Made by a program: the position numbers and the translations under genes. A stretch of DNA of 64,000 bases from an uncultured Poribacteria bacterium (lineage in GTDB: Bacteria > Poribacteria > WGA-4E > WGA-3G): positions 2,781,200 through 2,845,199 of the forward strand of contig OX639973.1 of the NCBI GenBank assembly GCA_951828385.1. Reading direction: 5' to 3'. Below the pieces are notes generated by a model. That model saw only the letters and a list, made by a program, of their open reading frames with translations. It was not told the DNA's origin and did no database searches. Below, piece after piece: positions 33,410 to 55,461 of this stretch. The stretch's first letter is position 1; each line of letters begins with the position of its first letter.

Positions 33410-34435
33410 ATGTATCGTGTCGGTATTATCGGGTTAGGCAGCATCGCCGCCCGTTATTCAACGCCTGATGACGCTTATCCATATTGCCATGCAGGTGGTA
33501 TCCGTTTTTGTGAGACAACCAAACTGGTCGCAGTCGCAGATATGTCCACGGAACGCCAATCAGAATTCCAGCAGACATGGGGACCCGGCTTCCCAGATAA
33601 CTCCATCAACTACTACGAAACAGATGTCCAGATGCTTGAGAGTGAAGAATTAGACATCGTCGCCGTCTGTGTCCGCGGACCGCATCATTTTCAGGTGATG
33701 CAGAATGTCTTGAGAGCAGACATTAAAGCCATCTTCCTCGAAAAACCTGCCGGATGTTCCCTCGAAGAAGTCGACACGATGACCGCCGGTGCCGACTTGA
33801 AAGGGATTCCTATCGTCGTGGACTATACACGCCACTGGGGGCCCCATCTCATCCGACTCCAATCGCTTATCAAAGACGGACTCATCGGCGAGGTACAAAC
33901 TGTCATCGGCTATTGCGGTGGTGGCGTGCTTTCCTTTACTATTCACACAACGGATATGATCTGCCAATTCGCAGGCTACGACCCGGTCTCCGTGACGGGA
34001 TTCGTCTCCGGTGGTGGCGATGTGCCAGAACCTTACGAACCTGAACCGGCGGTTGTCGGTGCAACCATCCAATTTGAAAGCGGTGTTATGGGATTCCATG
34101 TCGGAAACCACGGGACACGCGGCGGATTCTCCGTCGATGTTCTCGGCAGCGAAGGAACCGTTCAAACAGGATTTTATAGCGGCGCGACTGTCCATAGGGC
34201 GGGCAAATTGGTCGATAACGACACGCTTGATCTCCCTGAAAACGCCAGTCCGTTTAAGGTTGCGTACAAACAGATTACAGATTATCTTGATGGCGGTGCG
34301 CTTCCACATTGTGCCCGCGACGATTATACCGCTGTCAACGAAATCGGATTCGCCACGATTGAGAGCGGCATCACCGGGCAAACGATACAACTCCCGTGCC
34401 AAAACCGGAAACGACTTATTTTTGCAAATGGATAG
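33410..34435 (+). CDS. Gfo/Idh/MocA-family oxidoreductase
   Basis: This is a 341-aa oxidoreductase. It has GIIGLGSIAAR at the Rossmann start and the family EKP as FLEKPAG, with the catalytic Lys. VDYTRHWGPHLIRLQ and FTIHTTDMICQFAG are substrate-domain motifs. The ATG has AAAGGAG upstream. A decayed paralogue lies just upstream at 32827. The next gene starts eight bases after its stop, so it shares an operon with a restriction-methylase, an unusual pairing. The substrate is not predictable. Confidence 0.88.
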   Translation: MYRVGIIGLGSIAARYSTPDDAYPYCHAGGIRFCETTKLVAVADMSTERQSEFQQTWGPGFPDNSINYYETDVQMLESEELDIVAVCVRGPHHFQVMQNVLRADIKAIFLEKPAGCSLEEVDTMTAGADLKGIPIVVDYTRHWGPHLIRLQSLIKDGLIGEVQTVIGYCGGGVLSFTIHTTDMICQFAGYDPVSVTGFVSGGGDVPEPYEPEPAVVGATIQFESGVMGFHVGNHGTRGGFSVDVLGSEGTVQTGFYSGATVHRAGKLVDNDTLDLPENASPFKVAYKQITDYLDGGALPHCARDDYTAVNEIGFATIESGITGQTIQLPCQNRKRLIFANG

Positions 34436-34442
34436 GTATGCT

Positions 34443-37400
34443 ATGACGACTACTGACTATATTAACGCAATTGAGGAAGAATTACGAACCGGTCACGCGA
34501 CGGAGCATAGTTATCGTCCTATGCTCCAGCAATTTTTAGTTAGCTGGAGTCAGAACTTCTCGCCCGCAACGGATTACCATATCACCAATGAACCCAAACG
34601 TAACGCGAGAAATGCCCCCGACTTCCTCGTTCGGTGTAACGCAGTATCCTTAGGGTGGATTGAGACAAAACCGCCAGGAACAGCCTTAGATGCCGAAGAA
34701 GAATCTGAACAACTTCAACGGTATCGCAAAGCATTTCCAAATCTCATCTTAACCGATTATCTGGAATTTCGCCTCTATAGTGAAGGAGAAAAATGTCTCA
34801 CAGTCCGTATCGCGGATTTGGACAATACCACACAACGTTTAACACATCCGAACACAGATGATACTGAAGTCTCACACTTTTTAACAGCGTTTTTTGGTGC
34901 AGAACCGCTCAGGATTGGCAAAGCATCAGACCTTGCGCGAATGCTCAGTGGTAAAGCACAATTACTCAAGACAGCAATCATTGACCTCCTTCAAAATACA
35001 TCAAACGATGAACTCCAAAATCGGTTGGCTGCATTTCGAGAACATCTCATCGCGGATCTCTCTGAAGATGATTTTGGGGATATGATGGCTCAGACGATCA
35101 CCTATAGTCTTTTCGCCGCGCGGTGTTATCACACGCACGGGACCTTTAACCGAACCAGAGCGATAGAAATTCTTGACGAGATTCACCCTTTTCTGTCACA
35201 ACTCTTATGGATATCAATTCAAAGGTTAACGCAGCTGCATTGGATTATTGACCCTATTGCTGAACTACTTGATCTTGCTGATATGGAAAGTATTACCGCC
35301 GATTTTGGAACAGAAGGGAGACAAGCGGGTCCAATTATTCACTTTTATGAAGACTTTCTTAGCGACTACGATCCCGATATCCGCAGACAGCGCGGTGTTT
35401 ACTATACACCGGAACCCGTTGTTTCCTATATCGTCCGAAGCGTCAATACAGTATTAACTGAGAAGTTTAATTTGTCCGATGGACTTGCTCATACTGGCAC
35501 AGTTGATGTCAACGGAAAGCGTCTGCCAAAGGTTCAAATCCTTGATCCTGCCGCAGGCACTGGAACCTTTCTCCGATCAGTGATTTCACAGATATATGAC
35601 ACCATTATTACCAGTGGAATAGCCGGTGCGTGGCAAGAATACGTGCCGCAGTATCTCCTACCACGGCTTCACGGTTTTGAACGCATGGTGGCACCTTACG
35701 CAATGTGCCATTTGACTCTCACTTATCAACTTGATCAACTCGGATACCATTTGAAAGCCGATGAACGGCTTAATGTCTATCTTACGGATACACTTGAGGC
35801 AGGAGATCGTCAAGCAGGGCTGCCTATTTTTATAGATGAAATCGCCAAAGAAGCTGAATCCGCTGCCACTATTAAACGCGATCTACCAGTCATGGTGATT
35901 GTCAAAAATCCACCCTATTTAGCGGAGTCAGAGCACAAAGGCGAATGGATTACAAAACTTTTACGAGGTCTTGATGGAAACATCCCGACAGAAGACTATT
36001 TTGAAGTGGATGGACAACCACTTGATGAGCGCAATTCAAAAGCGTTAAACGACGATTATGTCAAATTCATCCGATTCGCCCAATGGCGTATTGAGCGTAC
36101 TGGATACGGAGTCCTCGCCTTCATCTCTAACCACGGCTACCTCAATAACCTCACATTTCGCGGCATGCGTCAAAGCCTCATGAAAACCTTTGATGCTATC
36201 TACATTCTCGACTTGCACGGGAATAAGAGAACAAATGAACAACCACCGGATGGAGGAACCGATGAAAACGTCTTTAATATTCAGCAGGGAGTCGCTATTG
36301 GTATCTTTGTCAAACAGAGACAAGAAAAATTAGATTCTGCACGTATTTATCATGCGGAGTTATGGGGAAATCGTGAGGATAAATACAATTGGCTTGAGGC
36401 AAATACCATTGACACAACCTCATGGAATAAGTTAACTCCAACATCTTCCAACTATCTTCTTGTTCCACATAGTGAAAGCGTAAGTGAAGAATATGAACGC
36501 TATTGGAAAATTACTGATATTTTTCTATCAAAGGTTAGTGGTATTACTACATCACGGGACGAGATGGTGACAGATTTTGAACCGGAATCGATATTTGAAC
36601 GGGTAAACCGCTTCCGAGATTCAACAGAATCCAGTGAACAATTACGTGAACAACTACCTATCAACATGAGCAATGAAGAGGATATAAGCAGGGCGCGCGA
36701 ATTACTTAGGGCAGAACAAGACCTTGAAAAGTACATCCAGCCGATTTTACATTTTCCATTCGATAGACGATTCATTTTTTACCATGATGCGTTAGTCGAG
36801 AGAAGAAGAAAAGACGTGATGAGACATCTCCTCGCTGGTCAAAATGTAGCACTATGTGTAGGTAGAGCAGGTCAAGCGGTCGGGAATGATACATGGAATA
36901 TCGTCTCTGTTTCCAAAACAATGGTGGATTACAATATCTTCCGACGCGGTGGTACCCGCGTTTTTCCTCTTTACTGCTACGTAGAAAGGGAAAGACAAAG
37001 GCACCATAACATGTCACAGCAATTTTTGGAAGAATTGTGCAGACATCTCAATTATGAAATTGACCCAACTAATACAATGCGTTTCATTTCTGATGGAAAA
37101 GGCGATTTGCAAACAACTATTGGACCGGAGAATATTTTCCATTATATCTATGCAATTTTACACGCGCCAAAGTACCGGGATCGATATAAAGATCAACTCA
37201 AAATTGATTTCCCGCATATCCCATTAACAACCAATCTCACATTATTTCAAAAATTGGTATCATTAGGTGAGCAACTGGCAGAGGCACACCTACTTCAGAG
37301 TGAAGATGTAAGTTTCCTGCCAGAATTTCCAGAGGGAGGTGACTCAGAAGTTGAGGAAATCCGTTGGTCAGAGGTAGACCAACGCGTTTGGATTAACTCA

Positions 37401-37628
37401 ACCCAGTATTTTACACTTATCTCGCGGGAAGTTTGGGAGTTTCGCGTAGGTGGACACTGTCCAGCAAAAAAGTGGCTTACTGACCGAAAATCGAGAATTT
37501 TGACTTTTGATGACATTCAACATTATCGGCGTATCTGCGGTGCGCTTGACAAAACCGTGAAAATTATGGAAGATATTGATAATACCATTGCTGAACATGG
37601 GGGTTGGCCCCTTGAAAACAAGGCATAA
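34443..37628 (+). CDS. Type ISP/IIG single-polypeptide restriction-modification enzyme
   Basis: This 1061-aa protein joins nuclease, methylase and target-recognition parts. The N-terminal 90 residues have a PD-(D/E)xK-like core (APDFLV...GWIETKPPG). The adenine-methylase core follows: GVYYTPEPVVSYIVRSV, motif I DPAAGTGTFLRSV, HGFERMVAPYAMCHLTL and the catalytic VKNPPYLAES. The C-terminal half matches the type ISP C-terminal specificity region (HFPFDRRFIFYHDAL, VRRGGTRVFPLY-like). I see no SF2 helicase motifs, so it is closer to type IIG. The start ATG at 34443 overlaps nothing and has a weak AGGT site; ATG at 34428 is an alternative. Confidence 0.82.
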   Translation: MTTTDYINAIEEELRTGHATEHSYRPMLQQFLVSWSQNFSPATDYHITNEPKRNARNAPDFLVRCNAVSLGWIETKPPGTALDAEEESEQLQRYRKAFPNLILTDYLEFRLYSEGEKCLTVRIADLDNTTQRLTHPNTDDTEVSHFLTAFFGAEPLRIGKASDLARMLSGKAQLLKTAIIDLLQNTSNDELQNRLAAFREHLIADLSEDDFGDMMAQTITYSLFAARCYHTHGTFNRTRAIEILDEIHPFLSQLLWISIQRLTQLHWIIDPIAELLDLADMESITADFGTEGRQAGPIIHFYEDFLSDYDPDIRRQRGVYYTPEPVVSYIVRSVNTVLTEKFNLSDGLAHTGTVDVNGKRLPKVQILDPAAGTGTFLRSVISQIYDTIITSGIAGAWQEYVPQYLLPRLHGFERMVAPYAMCHLTLTYQLDQLGYHLKADERLNVYLTDTLEAGDRQAGLPIFIDEIAKEAESAATIKRDLPVMVIVKNPPYLAESEHKGEWITKLLRGLDGNIPTEDYFEVDGQPLDERNSKALNDDYVKFIRFAQWRIERTGYGVLAFISNHGYLNNLTFRGMRQSLMKTFDAIYILDLHGNKRTNEQPPDGGTDENVFNIQQGVAIGIFVKQRQEKLDSARIYHAELWGNREDKYNWLEANTIDTTSWNKLTPTSSNYLLVPHSESVSEEYERYWKITDIFLSKVSGITTSRDEMVTDFEPESIFERVNRFRDSTESSEQLREQLPINMSNEEDISRARELLRAEQDLEKYIQPILHFPFDRRFIFYHDALVERRRKDVMRHLLAGQNVALCVGRAGQAVGNDTWNIVSVSKTMVDYNIFRRGGTRVFPLYCYVERERQRHHNMSQQFLEELCRHLNYEIDPTNTMRFISDGKGDLQTTIGPENIFHYIYAILHAPKYRDRYKDQLKIDFPHIPLTTNLTLFQKLVSLGEQLAEAHLLQSEDVSFLPEFPEGGDSEVEEIRWSEVDQRVWINSTQYFTLISREVWEFRVGGHCPAKKWLTDRKSRILTFDDIQHYRRICGALDKTVKIMEDIDNTIAEHGGWPLENKA

Positions 37629-37647
37629 TTATATCAATAAAATAACT

Positions 37648-38430
37648 ATGGCACCATTACGTAAACTTGATCATCTCTCTCGATTCTTTATGAAGTTTTA
37701 CGGTGGTAAGCACTATAAAACATCTCCGCACACACCGCTGCGTTTGCCGTTGAACGAATGTCGCGTTGCGCTCATCACAACTGCAGGTTTTTTTCTCGAT
37801 GGGCAGGATCCTTTTGAAAAGGGAGATTGTTCGTACCGCGAAATTCCAAATGTCATTCAGACACAGGCACTCATAAACGGACACAAAAGTGCGGCTTACG
37901 ATGAACGCGGTCTCGAAACAGATCCGAACCTCGCGTTTCCACTTGACAGATTCAGGGAGTTGGAGACCGAAGGCAAAATCGGATCCCTAAACCGTAGACA
38001 CTTCAGTTTTATGGGATCCATTACAAAACCGCACGCGCTTATCACACAATCCGCACCTGAGGTCGGACGGATGCTTAAAATGGACGGCGTAGATGTCGCT
38101 TTCTTAACGCCTGTCTGACCGATGTGCAATCAGTCTGTAGGATTGATACAACGTGCCGTTGAAGCGGCGGGAATTTCGACAGTTTCAATTACACTCGTTG
38201 AAAGTATGACGAAAAAGGTAAAACCGCCGCGCGCCTTAGCGGTGCCGTACGGTTTCGGACATCCACTCGGTGAACCGAGCAACCCAGAACTACAACACGC
38301 AATCATTGCTGAGGCACTCACACTCTTGGAAGACAAGACACCACCACCTGTTCTTAAAGTAGTAGGCAGAAAGGAGCTGCTTAGGTTAGGTCAAGTGTTA
38401 GCGAAACCAGACAACGTTTGTATCATGTAG
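37648..38430 (+). CDS. GrdB-like reductase family protein with in-frame UGA (probable selenoprotein)
   Basis: Two halves in the same frame are split only by TGA at 38116-38118. Read through as selenocysteine they give a 260-aa protein: VALITTAGFFLDGQDPF at the N-terminal half, then DVAFLTPV-U-PMCNQSVGLIQRAVEAAGI and RALAVPYGFGHPLG. This matches short proteins of the glycine/sarcosine/betaine reductase selenoprotein B family (PF07355), in which a U-x-x-C redox motif sits at exactly this place. Sec157 and Cys160 would form the redox pair. CAATC-AGTCTGTAG-GATTG, 10 bases after the UGA, could be the bacterial SECIS stem. The alternative is a Cys-to-stop mutation. It follows the restriction gene by 19 bases. 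Confidence 0.75.
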
Positions 38431-38436
38431 ATTGGG

Positions 38437-38754
38437 TTAGAGTTTCAACCATTGACGGACTGCGTCTTCAATCGCAGATAGTTGGTCGGGTTGGAGAGCA
38501 CCTAATTTCCTCAAGAACTTCGTTTCCGGTACGGTTACTATACTTTGTGCATCAAAAACACCAGTAGTATCCAAATATCTTGTTCGCACAGGTACTTCAA
38601 ACCTTGAGCCGCGTGTGCTTCTTGTGTGCGTTACAACGGTTACAAGCGCACGATCTTGCACAAGGGCAGGTGTGCTGATGACAAGACAAGGTCTAACTTT
38701 AGCTACCATGCCGAGGTCAACCAGCCAAACTTCACCGCGATTTTGTTTCGGCAT
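38437..38754 (-). CDS. PemK/MazF-family toxin
   Basis: This is a 105-aa MazF/PemK-fold endoribonuclease toxin. NRGEVWLVDLGMVAKVRPCLVIS is the N-terminal motif with the conserved RP. TVVTHTRSTRGSRFEVPV and VFDAQSIVTVPETKFLRKLGAL are the remaining strands (in part). It would cleave RNA when free of its antitoxin. The start is the ATG at 38752-38754, 23 bases inside the antitoxin gene. It converges with the selenoprotein gene, the two stops being six bases apart. Confidence 0.87.
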   Translation of the reverse strand: MPKQNRGEVWLVDLGMVAKVRPCLVISTPALVQDRALVTVVTHTRSTRGSRFEVPVRTRYLDTTGVFDAQSIVTVPETKFLRKLGALQPDQLSAIEDAVRQWLKL

Positions 38755-38938
38755 CTTTTTCCTCTGTTTTATCATGTGCAACGAAAAGTGCATCCGCAAT
38801 TTCCGTGAGTGCTTCATCAACCAACGGTGGGAAATCCAGCATAACCACCTGTTTTATGATTTCAGAGGCGAGCGCATGTTTTTCTATCTCAGGTAGTTGA
38901 TTGAATGCTTCCAATATGTTTTGTGACGTTGTATTCAT
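38732..38938 (-). CDS. Antitoxin of the MazF/PemK-type module
   Basis: This is a 68-aa acidic protein. It has a helical N terminus (SQNILEAFNQLPEIEKHALASEIIKQVV) and an unstructured charged tail (HDKTEEKDAETKSR), as in antitoxins that wrap a MazF-type toxin. The ATG at 38936-38938 has GGAGG six bases upstream. The promoter and a 15-base palindrome upstream suggest autorepression. Confidence 0.8.
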   Translation of the reverse strand: MNTTSQNILEAFNQLPEIEKHALASEIIKQVVMLDFPPLVDEALTEIADALFVAHDKTEEKDAETKSR

Positions 38939-38961
38939 CTGTGACCTCCGTATCAGGAAAA

Positions 38962-39007
38962 GCATAAAGTTTATGCAAATTATACACGATGTATTGACAA
39001 AATTCAA
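38962..39007 (-). promoter_or_regulatory. Promoter and palindromic operator of the toxin-antitoxin operon
   Basis: On the minus strand TTGAAT (39002-39007), 17 bases, TATAAT (38979-38984). Directly downstream GCATAAA-c-TTTATGC (38962-38976) is a perfect 15-base palindrome between the promoter and the ribosome site. A likely binding site for the toxin-antitoxin complex. Confidence 0.65.
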
Positions 39008-39151
39008 TACCTCTTTGGGAATGTCAATATACTATTTTGTCGGAGGGAATCGACACCAAATGCGCGTATGACATTTGCTGGGTTTACAAAACCTCCCACA
39101 ACGGATATACTTTCATAGGACGAACTACAAACAAGCAGAATGGAGAATTTG

Positions 39152-40213
39152 ATGGACAGAATTAAAGTTGGGATTATCGGATGTGGTGGCATCTTCCGTA
39201 ACCTCCACTCCCCTTATTACCAAGAACCGACACGCCGTGCTGACATCGTCGCGATTGCAGACATCAACGAAACATCCGCAAACGAACAAGCAGACCGGTT
39301 CGGTGCAGACGCATACACAGATTATCGCGCACTCCTTGACAGACAGGATATAGACGCTGTTGATGTGTGTGTCCATCCACGTCCGCATCTCGAAATTACG
39401 CGCGCCGCTGCCGATGCCGGCAAACACATCTTGATGGAAAAACCGATGTGTTGCAATGTCGCGGAGGGTGACGAGATGGTCGCCGCCGCTGAAAACGCCG
39501 GTGTCCTCTTGATGGTGGCTTATATGATGCGGTTTGATCCGGGATACATGAAACTGAAATCGCTATTAGACGATGGCACACTCGGCACCCTACAGATGGC
39601 GTATTCTAATCAGGTCGGTTGGTTTTCGCCGGAACGGCACCCGTGGCTCTTTGTCAAAGCAGAATCCGGGGGGATGTTGGTGGAGCAAGCCATTCACAAT
39701 CTCGACATCTGGTTGTGGTTATACGGTCCCGCTTCCACTGTCTATGGGTTTACAAGCCATGTTCCGCTCGGCGGTACCTATCCGTCTACTGACGAAGCCG
39801 TTGAAAACAACGCCGTGCTAACTGTGCATTTCAAAAACGGCGGTGTCGGCATGATGATTAAGAGTTGGGCAGCGGAGATCGGGAACAGTGGCAACGGTCT
39901 CGTCACCAGTAAAGGCTCCGCGACGTTGATTCGGCACGGACTCCGTTGGAAAACGCATGATATGGCATCGGCGGAAGAATTCACCGAACCAGCACCGGAT
40001 GACGACACCTATCGTAACGTGCCAGAGGCACAGCGTGAACAACGCTATTGGGGTATGGCAGCGAAAGGCGCGAGCATCGACCATTGGCTCCAGTGCATCG
40101 CCGGTGAAGCGGAACCGACGACGCACGGACGCATCGGCAGAGACGGAATTGAGTTAGCAGAGGCGACATATCGGTCTTCGCAAGTTGGTGCACAGATATC
40201 TTTGCCCCTGTAG
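39152..40213 (+). CDS. Gfo/Idh/MocA-family oxidoreductase
   Basis: This is a 353-aa oxidoreductase. The Rossmann motif is VGIIGCGGIFRNLH, the EKP motif is HILMEKPMCCNV, and MLVEQAIHNLDIWLWLYG is the substrate-side motif with the catalytic His. The start is the ATG at 39152 with GGAG seven bases upstream; ATG at 39140 would add four residues. It is a single gene, divergent from the toxin-antitoxin pair. The substrate is probably a sugar or cyclitol, by family. Confidence 0.88.
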   Translation: MDRIKVGIIGCGGIFRNLHSPYYQEPTRRADIVAIADINETSANEQADRFGADAYTDYRALLDRQDIDAVDVCVHPRPHLEITRAAADAGKHILMEKPMCCNVAEGDEMVAAAENAGVLLMVAYMMRFDPGYMKLKSLLDDGTLGTLQMAYSNQVGWFSPERHPWLFVKAESGGMLVEQAIHNLDIWLWLYGPASTVYGFTSHVPLGGTYPSTDEAVENNAVLTVHFKNGGVGMMIKSWAAEIGNSGNGLVTSKGSATLIRHGLRWKTHDMASAEEFTEPAPDDDTYRNVPEAQREQRYWGMAAKGASIDHWLQCIAGEAEPTTHGRIGRDGIELAEATYRSSQVGAQISLPL

Positions 40214-47954: not shown

Positions 47955-49223
47955 AAACTCAACATTGAAGCACTACTAGAGTGCTTCAATGTTGAGTTTG
48001 TGAAAAGAGTTGTTGACTTTTCATGTAATGCTGTGATATATTCTTCAGATAATCCTATTTCCTCTATGAGGGGTGTGTGATGAAAAAACATAAACATGAG
48101 GTTGAACTGACATCTGAAGAGCGTCAGACGCTTGAAACGTTAATTCGCAAGGGAGAACACAGTGCGCTGAAACTCATGCGTGCCCACATCTTGCTGAAAG
48201 CCGATAGCAATGGCCCCGGCTGGACGGATGCGCAAATCGCCGAGGCGTTTGGGTGCCATGAGCAAACCGCCTACAATGTTCGCAAACGTTTTGCGACGCG
48301 CGGGAGACTCTCCGCCTTGGAGCGGAAACCCCAAAGTCGCCCCTCTCACGTGCGAAAACTTGATGGTCAAGGTGAGGCGCGTTTGATAGCCCTGGCTTGT
48401 AGCGATCCGCCCGAAGGGTTTGCGCGCTGGACATTACAACTCCTTGCCGATGAACTTGTTGAACTTCAGGTTGTTGAAAATATCTCTATTGAAACGATCC
48501 GACAGACCCTAAAAAAAACGCCTTACGTCCGCATCGGTCATCCTACTATGTGATCCCGCCGGATCAAGACGCGGCATTTGTTGCGGCGATGGAAGCGGTT
48601 TTAGAGGTTTACCAACGCCCTGAAGACGCGAGATTTCCCGTTGTGGCTATGGACGAACGTCCCGTGCAGTTGCTTGCCGACATCCGGCCCCCGGTGCCGA
48701 TGAAACCCGGGCGCATCGCACGGATAGATTACGAGTATAAGCGCATCGGGTCGGTTTCTGCTTTCCTGTTTACCGCCCCGTTTCAGGGGTGGCGGCGTGT
48801 GTCGGTGCGAGAACGCCGCACTGCCGTAGATTGGGCGGAGGAAGTCAAGCACCTTTTAGATGAAGTCTATCCCGATGCCGAGCGAGTGACATTGGTTTGT
48901 GATAATCTCAATACACACAGACTCAGCTCTCTGTATAAAGCGTTTCCTGCCGAGGTGGCACTTGGGTTGTCTTCACGGTTAGAGATCGTCTACACCCCAA
49001 AGCATGGGAGTTGGTTGAACATCGCAGAGATTGAGTTGAGTGTCTTCTCAAGACAATGTCTGAACCGGCGGATTCCGGATATAGAGACGCTTCGGTCAGA
49101 GGCAGAAGCCTGGCAGACGTATCGGAATCAGACGGCGAACCGGGTTGATTGGCGATTTACGACACAAGACGCACGCATCAAACTAAAAAGACTATACCCT
49201 GAAACTCAACATTGAAGCACTAC
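47955..49223 (+). mobile_element. IS630-family insertion sequence with an extra inverted end
   Basis: The transposase gene is flanked by 20-bp inverted repeats: AGTGCTTCAATGTTGAGTTT at 47980-47999 and its inverse at 49202-49221, each bordered by TA, the target of this family. The element proper is about 47979-49223 (1.2 kb). Just outside the left end, 47955-47974 is an extra inverse copy of the same repeat, so a 45-base palindrome sits at the left edge. The IS interrupts the WD40 region of the giant secreted-protein gene. Confidence 0.85.
48080..49215 (+). CDS. IS630-family transposase made by -1 frameshifting
   Basis: Two frames: 48080-48553 (helix-turn-helix domain, ADAQIAEAFGCHEQTAYNVRKRF-type) and 48550-49215 (DDE domain). 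At 48511-48518 there is a run of eight A. Slipping back one base there turns LKKTPYVRIG into LKKNALRPHRSSYYVIPPDQ, which flows into the second frame without a gap. The DDE residues are in VVAMDERPVQL, LVCDNLNTH and PKHGSWLNIAEIE. The joined protein is about 378 aa, normal for the family. The start could be the GTG at 48077 or the ATG at 48080. The alternative is an inactivating one-base loss. Confidence 0.85.
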
Positions 49224-49227
49224 TAGG

Positions 49228-52200
49228 TCTGTATCGTTTTCGCCTGATGGTACGCTGCTCGCCTCTGGAACAGATAATGGAAGGTATGGGTTAGGTGATA
49301 AAACGGTTAGACTATGGGACGTGGCAACACGAACAAATATTGCTACCCTTGAGGGACATACGAAGGATATCCATTCAGTATCGTTTTCACCCGATGGAAC
49401 AACGCTTGCCTCCGTTTCTGGCAACTACGAACTTAGACTATGGGACGTGGCGACAGGGACAAACACTGCTACGATCGAGGAAGCTGGGAGCAGGTCAATA
49501 TCATTTTCACCCGATGGAACGATACTCGCTTTGCCCGGAGATTATTTTAACCTCACTAAAATTAAACTATGGGATGTGGCGACAAGAACACATATTGCTA
49601 CCCTTGATAAACGATGGACGAACACCGGTGAACGGATTCGGGGTGAGGTCTACTCAGTGGTATTTTCACCTGATGGAAGTACCCTCGCTGCCGCGCAGGG
49701 AAGTGAAATCCGTCTATGGAATGTGGCGACAAGAACACATACCGCTACTTTCACGGGGCATACGTCCGAGGTCTACTCAGTGGCATTTTCACATGACGGA
49801 GCAATTCTCGCTTCTGCGTCATCAGATAATACGGTCAGATTATGGGATGTGTCCGAGTGGTCGGGACCTCCCATGGCCTTTACTACACCGCTCATTCCAG
49901 TCAGTGATCGCACCCCGGAGGTGCGCGATGCGATTGTGCGCGCAGTACACTTAAATTCTGCCGCCGATGTCACCGAAGCAGACCTTGCAGGAATTACGGC
50001 ATTAAGCATTACCCACAAACGAAATTTCACATCACTGAAAGTGGGTGATTTTAGTGGACTATCTTCACTGGAAATGCTCGACATGGAGGTCAACGCTCTG
50101 AGGACGTTACCTGCCGGTGTTTTCAACGGGCTAACTTCACTAAGAACACTCAAACTTCGTAGTAACCGCCAACTGACCTCGTTACCTGCGGGTGTTTTCA
50201 ATGGGTTATCTTCACTCATAACGCTCCATCTGGACTATAACGCTCTGACCTCGTTGCCTGTTGATGTTTTCAACGGGTTATCTTCACTGACGCTCCTCAA
50301 CCTAGGCGACAACGGTCTGAGCTCGTTGCCCGCGGGTATTTTCAACGGACTATCTTCACTGGAAACGCTCAACCTGGGTAACCACTCCTCTGGTGGCAAC
50401 GACAACGCCCTGACTTCGTTGCCTGTAGGTGTTTTCAACGGACTATCTTCACTGGAAACGCTCAATCTGCAGTACAACCCTCTGAGTACGCTACCTGTGG
50501 GTGTTTTCAACGGACTATCTTCTCTGAAAAACCTCATCCTGTCTCAAAACGCAGTTAATCCCCTTCTGCTCATTGTATCCTTAGAAAAGGTTGCAAATGG
50601 TCAGTTCAAAGCAGTGGCACCGGCCGGTGCACCTTTTGATATTGTATTGCCGCTTACCGTTAGAAACGGTAGCATCACCAGTGGCGCAGAGAACATCACG
50701 ATCCCCACAGGCAGTGTGGAAAGTGAGACCCTCACGGTAACTCGCACACCCGACACAACGGATGCTGTCACCGTCAATATCGTGACATTACCGAACCTGC
50801 CATCAGTTCACGGTGTGTCAGTTCACAGTGGGTATGCACTCGTTAAATCTGCTGATTTGCCACTCAACCTTCCGTTGCCAGAAATCCGCACTTTGATAGG
50901 AAGCCGCACGTCTCAAGTGCGCGATGCTATCGTCGCAGCAGTACCGGGCGTGGACAATGCTGCCGATGTAACTGAAGCACACCTCGCCGCTATTACGGCA
51001 CTCAACTTAAGTAACAAAGGCATCACAGCCCTGAAATCCGGTGATTTTGACGGGTTGACCGCGTTGACAAACCTTAACTTGTTCGACAATGATCTAACAA
51101 GTCTTCCAGAGGATGTGTTTGATGGACTCTCTTCGCTGACAACGCTTTCCTTGCATAACAACAGATTAACAGCATTACCACCGGACATCTTTGATGGACT
51201 CACTGCATTGACAAACCTTGACCTGTCAGGTCTCAATAAACTCTTTTTTGGTGCGTTTACCACATTACCGGTAGATGTCTTTGATGGGTTGACCGCGTTG
51301 ACAACGCTCAACTTACAGGGCAATGACTTTAGCACACTTCCAGCGGGTGTATTTGATGGACTCACCGCACTGACAGACCTCTGGTTGAATGCCAACAAAC
51401 TAACGACCTTACCTGCGGGTGTATTTGATGGACTCACCCAATTGGAAAAACTGCGTCTTTCTAGCAACAAATTGAGGACCTTGCCCGGAAAGATATTTGA
51501 CGAACTCACATCACTGACATTTCTTGACTTACAAAACGGCGAGTTAAGTTCGTTGCCAGCGGATACATTTGATGGACTCACATCATTAAAGACACTTTTT
51601 CTCGACAGAAACCGATTAACATCGCTACCGGATGGGATATTTGACGGGCTTACGTCACTGTCATCTGTCGGTTTACGAGGCAACCCAGGTGCCCCATTCC
51701 GGATAGGTGTATCACTGGAAAAAGTTGGCACGGATCAATTCAAAGCAGTCGTACCCACGGGTGCACCGTTTGATATTGTGCTACCGCTTACCATGACAAA
51801 TGGAAGCATCAGTGGTGGTGCAACAACAGTCACAATATCCGCTGGCAGTGTGGAGAGTGAAGTACTTACTGTGACACGCACGTCCGGCACAACTACTGCT
51901 GTCACTGTGGATATCGGCACCTTACCGGGGCTACCCTCAAATCATGACGGCTACGCACTACGCAAATCCACCACTCACTTGCCGTTGACAGTCATCGATG
52001 CACCACGGAACAGTGCCCCTGTATTCACCGATGGCACAACCACCACCCGCACAATCGCTGAAAACACCGCCGCAAATACAAACATCGGCACGGCTATAAC
52101 TGCCACAGATGCCGATACCGGCGACACACTCACTTATACCCTCGGCGGCACGGATACCGCCGCCTTTGAGATTGACACAACAACAGGACAATTGAAAACC

Positions 52201-55200
52201 AAGGCAGCACTCGACTACGAAATCAAAGCCGCTTACACGGTAACTGTTACTGTCTCCGATGGCAGCTTGACTGATACCATCACCGTTACTATTAACATTA
52301 CGGATGTAAACGAATTGCCCACAAGCGCGGGAGTCTGTAAAGTTGGGGATGTCCTTAAGCCCGGTGAAAGTTGTACCTATCCCGGCACGGATGTGAAGTT
52401 TTCTGTCAACGCGAACGGCAGCGGACAGTTCTTGTTCCTTACTGCTGCAAACAACATCAACATTCAGAACACAGAACTTAACAACGTGTCTTATACGCTC
52501 GTTGCTAAGAAACTCGCCAGTGGCTCTTGGGAAATAGAGGAGATTGCCGACAGTTCAGCTCCCAAAACAACGAACACCGCCCCAGTGTTCACCGATGGCA
52601 CCCGCACCACCCGTTCTATTGCAGAGAACACGGCATCGGGACAAAACATCGGCACAGCAATAGCCGCGACAGATGCCGACAACGATACCCTCACCTACAC
52701 GCTCGGTGGCACCGATGCCACCGCGTTCAGCATCGTCAGCATTTCCGGGCAGCTGCGAACCCGTGCTGCATTAGATTATGAAACCAAGTCATCCTATTCC
52801 GTCACGGTCACCGTTTCTGATGAGAACGGCGGCACTGATAGCATCACGATCACAATCAATGTCACGGATGTAACCGAAATTACAAATACCGCTCCTGTGT
52901 TCACAGATGGTACAACCGCCACCCGCACTGTTGCTGAAAACACCGCCGCCAGCACAAACATCGGCACGGCTATAACTGCCACGGATACGGATAATGACAG
53001 GCTCACTTACACCCTCAGTGGCACCGATGCCGCAGCGTTCACTATCGTCAGCACTACCGGGCAGCTGCGAACCAAAGCCACCCTCGACTATGAAACGAAG
53101 GCAGCCTACTCGGTAACAATCACTGTCTCCGATGGCAGCCTGACTGACACAATTAGTGTCACTGTCAATATCACAGATGTAGACGAAGGAGCCGCAGGCA
53201 CCTCTGGGGATAATACGCCACCACCAACCCCGGATACCCGGATAGCCTTTGAAGCCAACACACCCGCTGAATATACGCGTGTGACACTCAGCGATAACGG
53301 TAAGGTTTGGGGCATCCCGACAAAATACACCACCGATTCTGATGTCGGCACAGTCGCATATATGGCACTCGCAACGTTGATGGGATGCGATTTCGCTGAC
53401 GCAGAGGTCGCAAGGCAAAGTAAAGTGTACATCAAGAGGCACTCCTTGGGAACACTGAGCAACTTTGCGTCGGGGACGGTCTGTGGAAAAACAAGTCGCA
53501 CCTGGTCAAGTTCTTGGAGCGCAGTCCGGATCACACATCTGCGTTTTTTTGATGAGACAGGTACGCCTAACATCAAGGAGGCGGTCTACAACGCCGATAC
53601 GGATCAAATAGAGATCCCTGGAGGATGGCAACCACCGGATATAACACAACAGCCTGACCCACCCGAACAACCGCAACAACCCCAGCAACCTGGAAACGGA
53701 GGCGGCACCCCGACGCTCACCGCATCAACTATGTCTCCATTGACAGAGGCGACGCTGCATGGAGGGGTCGTGACACTGACACTCAGTGGCAGAATCTATG
53801 AATCCTCTGGTTCAAAAATCAGAGGGGCAGTGTCATTCTCTGGCATTCCTGGTGTCACCGTCAAGCCCCCCAAAAGCAGGTGTGGGTGTCAGCTTTTCTT
53901 CTTCAATTGTAACTGCTACACATACGACTATGGTATCAGCCGTGTTAGCGATACTGAGGTCACTGTTAAACTGGTATTCGATGGTAATATTGACAACGAT
54001 AGCACGCTGACATTTACCGTCGGTGCGGGTGCCATCGCTGGATACAACGGACCGGCACTCACCGCACAACTGCCTGTCTCAGCAGTGCAAGAATCGTTAG
54101 TTGCATCAACTATGTCTCCATTGACAGAGGCAACATTAGATGGAAGTAGTGTCACACTGACACTCAGTGGCAGAATTTATGCCTTTGGTTCAAAAATGAG
54201 AGAGGCAGTGTCATTCTCTGGCATTCCTGGTGTCACCGTCAAGCCCTCCGAAACAAATTGTGTTTGTAGGTTTGCCTTCAATTGTAGGTGCAACATATAC
54301 TATGGTATCAGCCGTGTTAGCGATACTGAGGTCACTGTTAAACTGGTATTCGATGGTGATATTGACAGCAATGGCACGCTGACATTTACCGTCGGTGCGG
54401 ATGCCATCGCTGGATACAACGGACCGGCACTCACCGCGCTGGTCTCTGTCTCTGCTGGAGGGGTGCCTGCAGATCCCGAAGTACCTATAAATATGGGTGG
54501 AACACCAACGCTAACCGCTTCAACCACGGCACCATTGACAGAAACAACGCTACATGAAAGCGTCGTCACACTCACACTCAGCGGTGGCACCTATAAGCAG
54601 CAGAGTTTCAACCTAACAGTGTCCGGTATTAACGGTGTCACTGTTAGCACATTTCCCCTTGGCATTCCATTTCACCTTCGGAGTTTTGACCTTGATCGCC
54701 AGAGCGACACAGAAGTCGCCGTTGAACTCACATTCAACGGCGACTTTGATACCGATGCTACACTCACTTTTACTGTCGGCGCAGGTGCCATCGCTGGTGG
54801 ATACAACGGGCCGGCACTCACAGCAGAACTGCCTGTCACAGCAGTGGAAGAATCGTTAGTTGCATCAACAGAGGCACCTCTGACAGAGGCGACACTTGAT
54901 GACAGTGTCGTTACTCTCACACTCACCGGGCGCGCTTATGTGCGGTCTTCTTATGATATTGAGCGGGCAATGACAATCGCCGGCATTGACGGCGTAACAA
55001 TTCCTTGGCACGAGCCTGACAGAAAAAACGACACCGAAATCACTGTGGAACTTGAATTTGATGGCAATATCAACGTTGATAGCACACTCACATTCACCGT
55101 CGGCGTAGGTGCCATCTCAAACTACAACGGACCCGCACTCACCGCACAAATAACGGTCACCGCAGACAGAGAAAACGCCCTTTTAGCAAACTTCCCGAAC

Positions 55201-55461
55201 CCGTTCAACCCTGAGACGTGGATACCCTATCACTTGGCAAAACCCACAGAGGTCACCCTCACAATCTACGCTGTGAACGGACAAGCGGTGCGGACATTAG
55301 CACTCGGACATCAACCCGCGGGTATCTACCAGACTCGCAGTCGTGCAGCGTATTGGGACGGCAGAAACGCACAAGGTGAACCCGTCGCAAGCGGTGTCTA
55401 TTTCTACACACTCACCGCAGGCGATTTTTCTGCCACACGAAAGATGTTAATACGAAAATAG
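49228..55461 (+). pseudogene. 3' part of the giant secreted repeat protein (WD40, LRR, cadherin, sorting-like domain)
   Basis: This is an open frame of about 2077 codons with no start of its own; it continues the WD40 text of 46555-47889 (SVSFSPDGTLLASG). In order: four WD40 repeats (to about 49860); a first LRR array (49990-50560) with a beta-domain (FKAVAPAGAPFDIVLPLT); a second LRR array and a copy of the same beta-domain (50900-51960); three cadherin-like repeats (NTAPVFTDGTTTTRTIAENTA type, 52010-53190); an unrecognised Cys-containing segment; four repeats beginning TASTMSPLTEATL (53710-55165); and the C-terminal NFPNPFNPETWIPYHLA...RKMLIRK domain. Such proteins mediate surface contact or eukaryote-like interactions. 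It is probably not translated unless an internal GTG is used. Confidence 0.8.

Follow-up and report, generated by a model that had tools for sequence, protein, structure and literature searches.

A probable PrdB-like selenoprotein gene with a conserved in-frame UGA codon in an uncultured Poribacteria bacterium

Genes at the locus

The window (the whole 64-kb stretch of DNA that was analysed, in a genome of 6.66 Mb assembled as a single contig) contains a gene that begins with ATG, ends with TAG and is crossed by one in-frame UGA (Table 1). The initial annotation had described two ORFs in the same frame with only a TGA between them, which is indeed the arrangement found, and a standard gene finder would split the gene in two. 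The downstream ORF has an ATG of its own at 38122. Around the UGA, the translation reads FLTPV-U-PMCNQSVGLIQ, and the UGA lies, as had also been claimed, at the position of the redox Cys or Sec of the family, ahead of PMC: the [Sec/Cys]xxC motif falls in the same alignment column as that of PrdB.

Table 1. Features at and around the probable selenoprotein gene, in window coordinates
Feature	Position	Strand	Remarks
Gfo/Idh/MocA oxidoreductase gene	33410..34435	+	PF01408; homologue directly upstream of the selenoprotein gene in relatives
Type ISP restriction-modification gene	34011..37628	+	PF18135, PF02384; limits of the ORF, true start probably later; between the Gfo/Idh and selenoprotein genes
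Probable selenoprotein gene	37648..38430	+	260 codons including the Sec codon, plus TAG; PF07355, E 6e-10; TIGR04483, E 1e-43, below cut-off
In-frame UGA, probably read as selenocysteine, residue 157	38116..38118	+	codon conservation among relatives
Codon of Cys160, putative resolving partner in U-x-x-C	38125..38127	+	invariant in 24-sequence alignment A4
SECIS-like hairpin	38129..38147	+	8-bp stem, 38129-38136 with 38140-38147; loop GUA, 38137-38139; 18 nt after the UGA
Second Gfo/Idh/MocA oxidoreductase gene	39140..40213	+	PF01408; downstream neighbour conserved in close relatives

A gap of ~16 bases separates the Gfo/Idh gene from the selenoprotein gene in most close relatives. The type ISP restriction-modification gene, which occupies this gap in the window, looks like an insertion, and a gene of the same cluster is found in the gap at three other loci (L054, L065 and L066). 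When the 64 loci of a wider collection of homologues are taken together with the window, 30 of the 65 regions have genes of the Gfo/Idh/MocA cluster nearby, 57 in number and all on the same strand, and in 25 of these 30 such a gene is located 150 bases or less upstream. The upstream Gfo/Idh gene of the window itself was dropped from this analysis by an overlap filter. The usual presence of these neighbours, facing the same way, in close relatives suggests a possible functional link. No Gfo/Idh neighbour of the cluster occurs in 7 of the 37 Poribacteria regions (one of them, L054, a contig of 3.4 kb), and none was seen in other phyla in the neighbour analysis of the 64 loci. The Rubrobacter group (L089-L116) comprises 18 Actinomycetota loci with the same Sec protein, where the motif is PSUPLCHR. 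Its recurrent neighbours are a YchF-type GTPase, DUF6391 and a pyridine-nucleotide oxidoreductase; these differ from the Poribacteria neighbours, so no operon extending across phyla was found.

Several other features of the window are recorded here as observations. Directly downstream of the selenoprotein gene, on the minus strand, is a PemK/MazF-like toxin gene, overlapped by a small upstream ORF that has no Pfam match and may be an antitoxin (38437-38820 and 38732-39007, both minus strand). Two overlapping ORFs of 158 and 221 aa at 48077-49215 resemble a transposase divided between two frames, presumably IS630-like, where the TGA at 49213 is an ordinary stop. An ORF of 2046 aa (49321-55461) is rich in repeats that, judged by eye from the translation, are WD-like, leucine-rich and cadherin-like.

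Conservation of the UGA codon and the selenocysteine machinery

A double ORF of this kind does not by itself exceed chance, since same-frame pairs of long ORFs split by one stop (more than 120 codons before it and more than 80 after it) number eight in the 64-kb window, with TAG (4) and TAA (2) as the stop as well as TGA (2). The evidence beyond chance is therefore the conservation, in relatives, of the UGA itself and of the frame on either side, rather than the ORF pair. Forty genomes, that of the window included, were searched for the gene; the nearest named relatives are Candidatus Poribacteria MAGs. A match was present in 31 genomes and absent from nine; the one in G036, at a contig end, does not reach the site, which leaves 30 that do. 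In all 30, UGA is found at the position of codon 157 and conserved protein continues after it. A second collection of 64 loci, which overlaps the first so that the two counts are not independent, has UGA at 59 loci and Cys at five (L086, L100, L102, L104 and L111), with no other type of codon. Relatives with an ordinary stop at this position had been named as a point to check, and in neither set does the protein end there. Downstream of the UGA, close relatives differ mainly by silent substitutions: relative to L024, the 80 codons that follow it show 21 silent and 7 amino-acid changes, while for L051, the most distant of those compared, the figures are 27 and 45.

The genome is also equipped for selenocysteine. 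All four genes that the initial annotation had proposed to look for are present: selA (603.5 bits), selB (355.2 bits) and selD (362.6 bits) score over their curated cut-offs, and the tRNA-Sec gene (selC, 76.4 bits) follows selB on the same strand after 40 bases, where ARAGORN calls a tRNA-SeC with anticodon tca. Translation of selD (G000:C1:1330118-1331041, L020) likewise has to pass an in-frame UGA, close to the start of the gene (CAGUASK), and selD is thus itself a selenoprotein gene; the genome therefore appears to use the Sec system in at least two genes. Among the relatives, 39 of 40 genomes have a tRNA-Sec over the cut-off. The one exception, G030, is among the nine that lack the selenoprotein gene, the other eight of which do have a tRNA-Sec.

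The SECIS-like hairpin

The short stem-loop that had been noted 10 bases after the UGA is confirmed, with a 5' arm that starts at exactly this distance. The bSECIS rules, as excerpted from PMC13188914, are a loop of 3-9 nt, a stem of 4-16 bp, a G in the first two loop bases and 16-37 nt from UGA to loop, and the window hairpin fits in all four respects (3-nt GUA loop, 8-bp stem, loop G, 18-nt spacing). For the minimum free energy the same excerpt gives a limit of -7.5 kcal/mol or lower, to be compared with -6.7 kcal/mol for the 21 nt of the hairpin alone and -9.7 over 42 nt. The structure is only moderately stable (z -1.14, 25 of 200 shuffles being as good), and an Rfam search gave no match.

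With the U of UGA counted as base 1, bases 14-21 pair with bases 25-32 around a GUN loop. All eight pairs are kept in the window. Among the 59 Sec loci, 48 keep eight pairs, six keep seven, three keep six, L091 keeps five and L107 two (at least seven of eight, therefore, in 54), and the GUN loop is present in 58; the five Cys loci retain fewer pairs (3, 6, 4, 5 and 4 of 8). Covariation was measured in alignment A5, with 58 of the 60 UGA sequences in 55 distinct rows, L091 and L107 having been left out. In the stem, 97.3% of cells are paired; shuffles give 90.9%, and sliding the stem gives no more than 55%. Cells with changes on both sides number 34, as compared with 12.7 in the shuffles. Two of the five covariation measures are not above the shuffles, which leave the relatedness of the sequences in place: values as high were reached in 325 of 500 for both-side-changed pairs and in 326 of 500 for further pair types. 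In four loci of the Rubrobacter group, a U-to-G change turns Ser into Ala, and the silent base of the Gly codon opposite has become C, so that the pair is kept.

As the stem overlies conserved peptide, constraint on the protein accounts for some of the conservation of the stem; the reduction of silent variation in this region is not significant (p 0.055). When positions within each gene are ranked by mean fold energy, the stretch after the Sec codon is in the top tenth for 39 of 60 sequences, and also for two of the five Cys homologues, so that energy alone does not separate the Sec from the Cys forms. Pairing of the named stem separates them better, if not perfectly. Overall, compensatory changes preserve the predicted hairpin over the range from Poribacteria to Rubrobacter, and the Cys homologues have a poorer version of it. 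Covariation of this kind across phyla provides a clean example of a SECIS element outside the usual model organisms.

These results bear on three further readings of the UGA. It could be an ordinary stop, or the mark of a disabled gene, with the downstream ORF a separate gene or dead remnant; split ORFs are not rare in the window, and the downstream ORF could start from its own ATG. However, the identical split recurs at the same codon in every one of the 30 relatives that cover it, followed by conserved protein, only UGA or Cys codons occupy the site in 64 loci of several phyla, and the genome has the full Sec machinery, which together make such a stop very improbable. Misreading of a Cys codon as TGA would take a single base, and Cys is indeed the residue in five of the 64 homologues, but the presence of this UGA in tens of genomes that were assembled separately refutes a sequencing error in practice, and the hairpin is kept best where the UGA is present; we therefore dismiss this reading almost entirely. 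Insertion of some other amino acid, through an altered code or plain readthrough, has in its favour that the residue cannot be told from an in-frame UGA alone. This is scarcely credible given the near-universal tRNA-Sec of the relatives, the tca anticodon in the genome itself, the presence of selA and selB, and Cys as the only alternative residue at the site; moreover, TGA also appears to terminate genes in the window, such as the ORF ending at 49215.

The sequence checks that had been proposed (Sec machinery, codons of relatives, hairpin rules) support the original view of a probable selenoprotein. We conclude that the gene is, with high probability, a real selenoprotein gene, and its UGA a conserved sense codon. 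At this codon, SelB carrying Sec-tRNA-Sec would bind the loop of the hairpin, and selenocysteine would be inserted.

Family placement and possible role

The protein had been called GrdB-like. This stands at the level of Pfam, where it matches PF07355 (GRDB) with 39.4 bits against a gathering cut-off of 22, but the short PrdB (small subunit of D-proline reductase) is more closely related. The PrdB model, TIGR04483, is the best NCBIfam match with 149.5 bits, itself below the equivalog cut-off of 300, while the true PrdB proteins of L102 and L104, whose genes adjoin PrdA and PrdC, reach 449.7 and 460.8 bits. For TIGR01917 (glycine reductase selenoprotein B) the score is 47.9 bits against a cut-off of 602.2, and the match covers only model positions 273-418 of 431.

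The consistent failure to find the partner subunit casts doubt on 'proline reductase' as the usual functional label. The PrdA/GrdE family (PF09338) was detected in none of the 40 Poribacteria-group genomes, that of the window included, and in none of 24 genomes of other phyla with non-operon homologues, where the control genome was positive and many of those searched are MAGs that may be incomplete. One and the same search found the family in 4 of 4 genomes with a true prd operon, in 0 of 7 Poribacteria-group genomes (again with that of the window) and in 0 of 1 Rubrobacter genome. With tblastn, in flanks of up to 8 kb that are shorter in many loci, PrdA and PrdC were found at only four of the 64 loci (L100, L102, L104 and L111), all of Bacillota and exactly those with the motif GGCGTC. 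On a tree of the homologues the PrdA trait takes one change and the Sec/Cys state two, with long branches flagged by the program. In the part of a serpentinite paper that was consulted, PrdBA serves as outgroup to GrdBE, the two subunits being treated as a pair (PMC9751293).

The gene could still encode PrdB proper, the Sec subunit of a D-proline reductase working with PrdA. Its top NCBIfam match points that way, as do the GDxSYREIP and [U/C]xxC regions common to true PrdB, and Sec UxxC proteins of this kind are listed as 'Proline reductase PrdB' in two marine surveys (PMC2398784, PMC1088965). The score of half the cut-off, the 0 of 40 genomes with PF09338, the confinement of PrdA and PrdC to four Bacillota loci and the motif TPVUPMC in place of GGCGTC argue against it, and we regard it as quite unlikely. 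The product is most likely a free-standing, PrdB-like Sec/Cys redox protein. D-proline reduction is improbable because the PrdA family was not found in any searched genome with the free-standing form, and a redox role other than this reaction is probable. About even chances can be given to a wider proposal, that these proteins form a distinct free-standing selenoenzyme family, which occurs in Poribacteria, Rubrobacteria, Acidobacteriota and Chloroflexota and has carried the name 'proline reductase PrdB' although it lacks PrdA.

The AlphaFold model of the protein (mean pLDDT 90.4) places Sec157 directly after the strand 150-154 and at the start of the helix 158-173. Sec157 and Cys160 may work as a selenenylsulfide/selenol-thiol pair, which would pass electrons to or from a partner protein or a small substrate. 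A sequence search returned no solved relatives, and Foldseek against solved structures no confident match (best E 0.036). The best match by VIA-align, a Rossmann-type dehydrogenase (Z 8.5), is within the range of common arrangements and was not usable.

Some of the proteins labelled 'proline reductase PrdB' may thus belong to a group of their own, for which no proline reductase partner was found, and what this PrdA-less group reduces becomes a testable question. If the family is distinct, much of the abundant marine 'PrdB' would be a selenol redox enzyme rather than a sign of D-proline fermentation, and its hosts would be aerobic or sponge-associated bacteria. Among the papers searched, none has the term 'PrdB-like', and none has 'selenoprotein' and 'Poribacteria' together.

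Among known systems, PrdB (TIGR04483, within PF07355) is the closest: the length of ~240-260 aa, the GDxSYREIP region and the column of the redox motif are shared. True PrdB differs in scoring about three times as high on its model, in reading GGCGTCHRS where the present protein has TPVUPMCNQ, and in being accompanied by PrdA and PrdC at the locus and PF09338 in the genome. Sec-containing PrdB is known from clostridia, according to the excerpt of PMC13188914. With GrdB, GrdF and GrdH (PF07355, TIGR01917, NF040794, NF040795) the similarity is restricted to the C-terminal half of GrdB, which aligns and includes the UxxC motif; only about the last half of these models of 431-435 positions is matched, at 47.9-58.5 bits against cut-offs of 602-800, and the GrdE family (PF09338) that belongs to GrdB systems was not found in the genome. 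We therefore call the gene PrdB-like, rather than GrdB or PrdB, as by sequence it appears closer to PrdB than to GrdB and is not a proven PrdB. The marine 'Proline reductase PrdB', to judge from its published description, has the same UxxC motif and, in the GOS table, belongs to the same Pfam family. In the portions of the two surveys consulted, Sec 'PrdB' with UxxC is represented by 42 Sargasso Sea sequences (PMC1088965) and by 235 GOS sequences assigned to pfam07355 (PMC2398784), and ranks among the commonest marine selenoproteins (PMC1088965, PMC2398784). Sec-containing 'PrdB' is thus already catalogued in marine metagenomes; the kind of gene is known, and the present gene is a new member.
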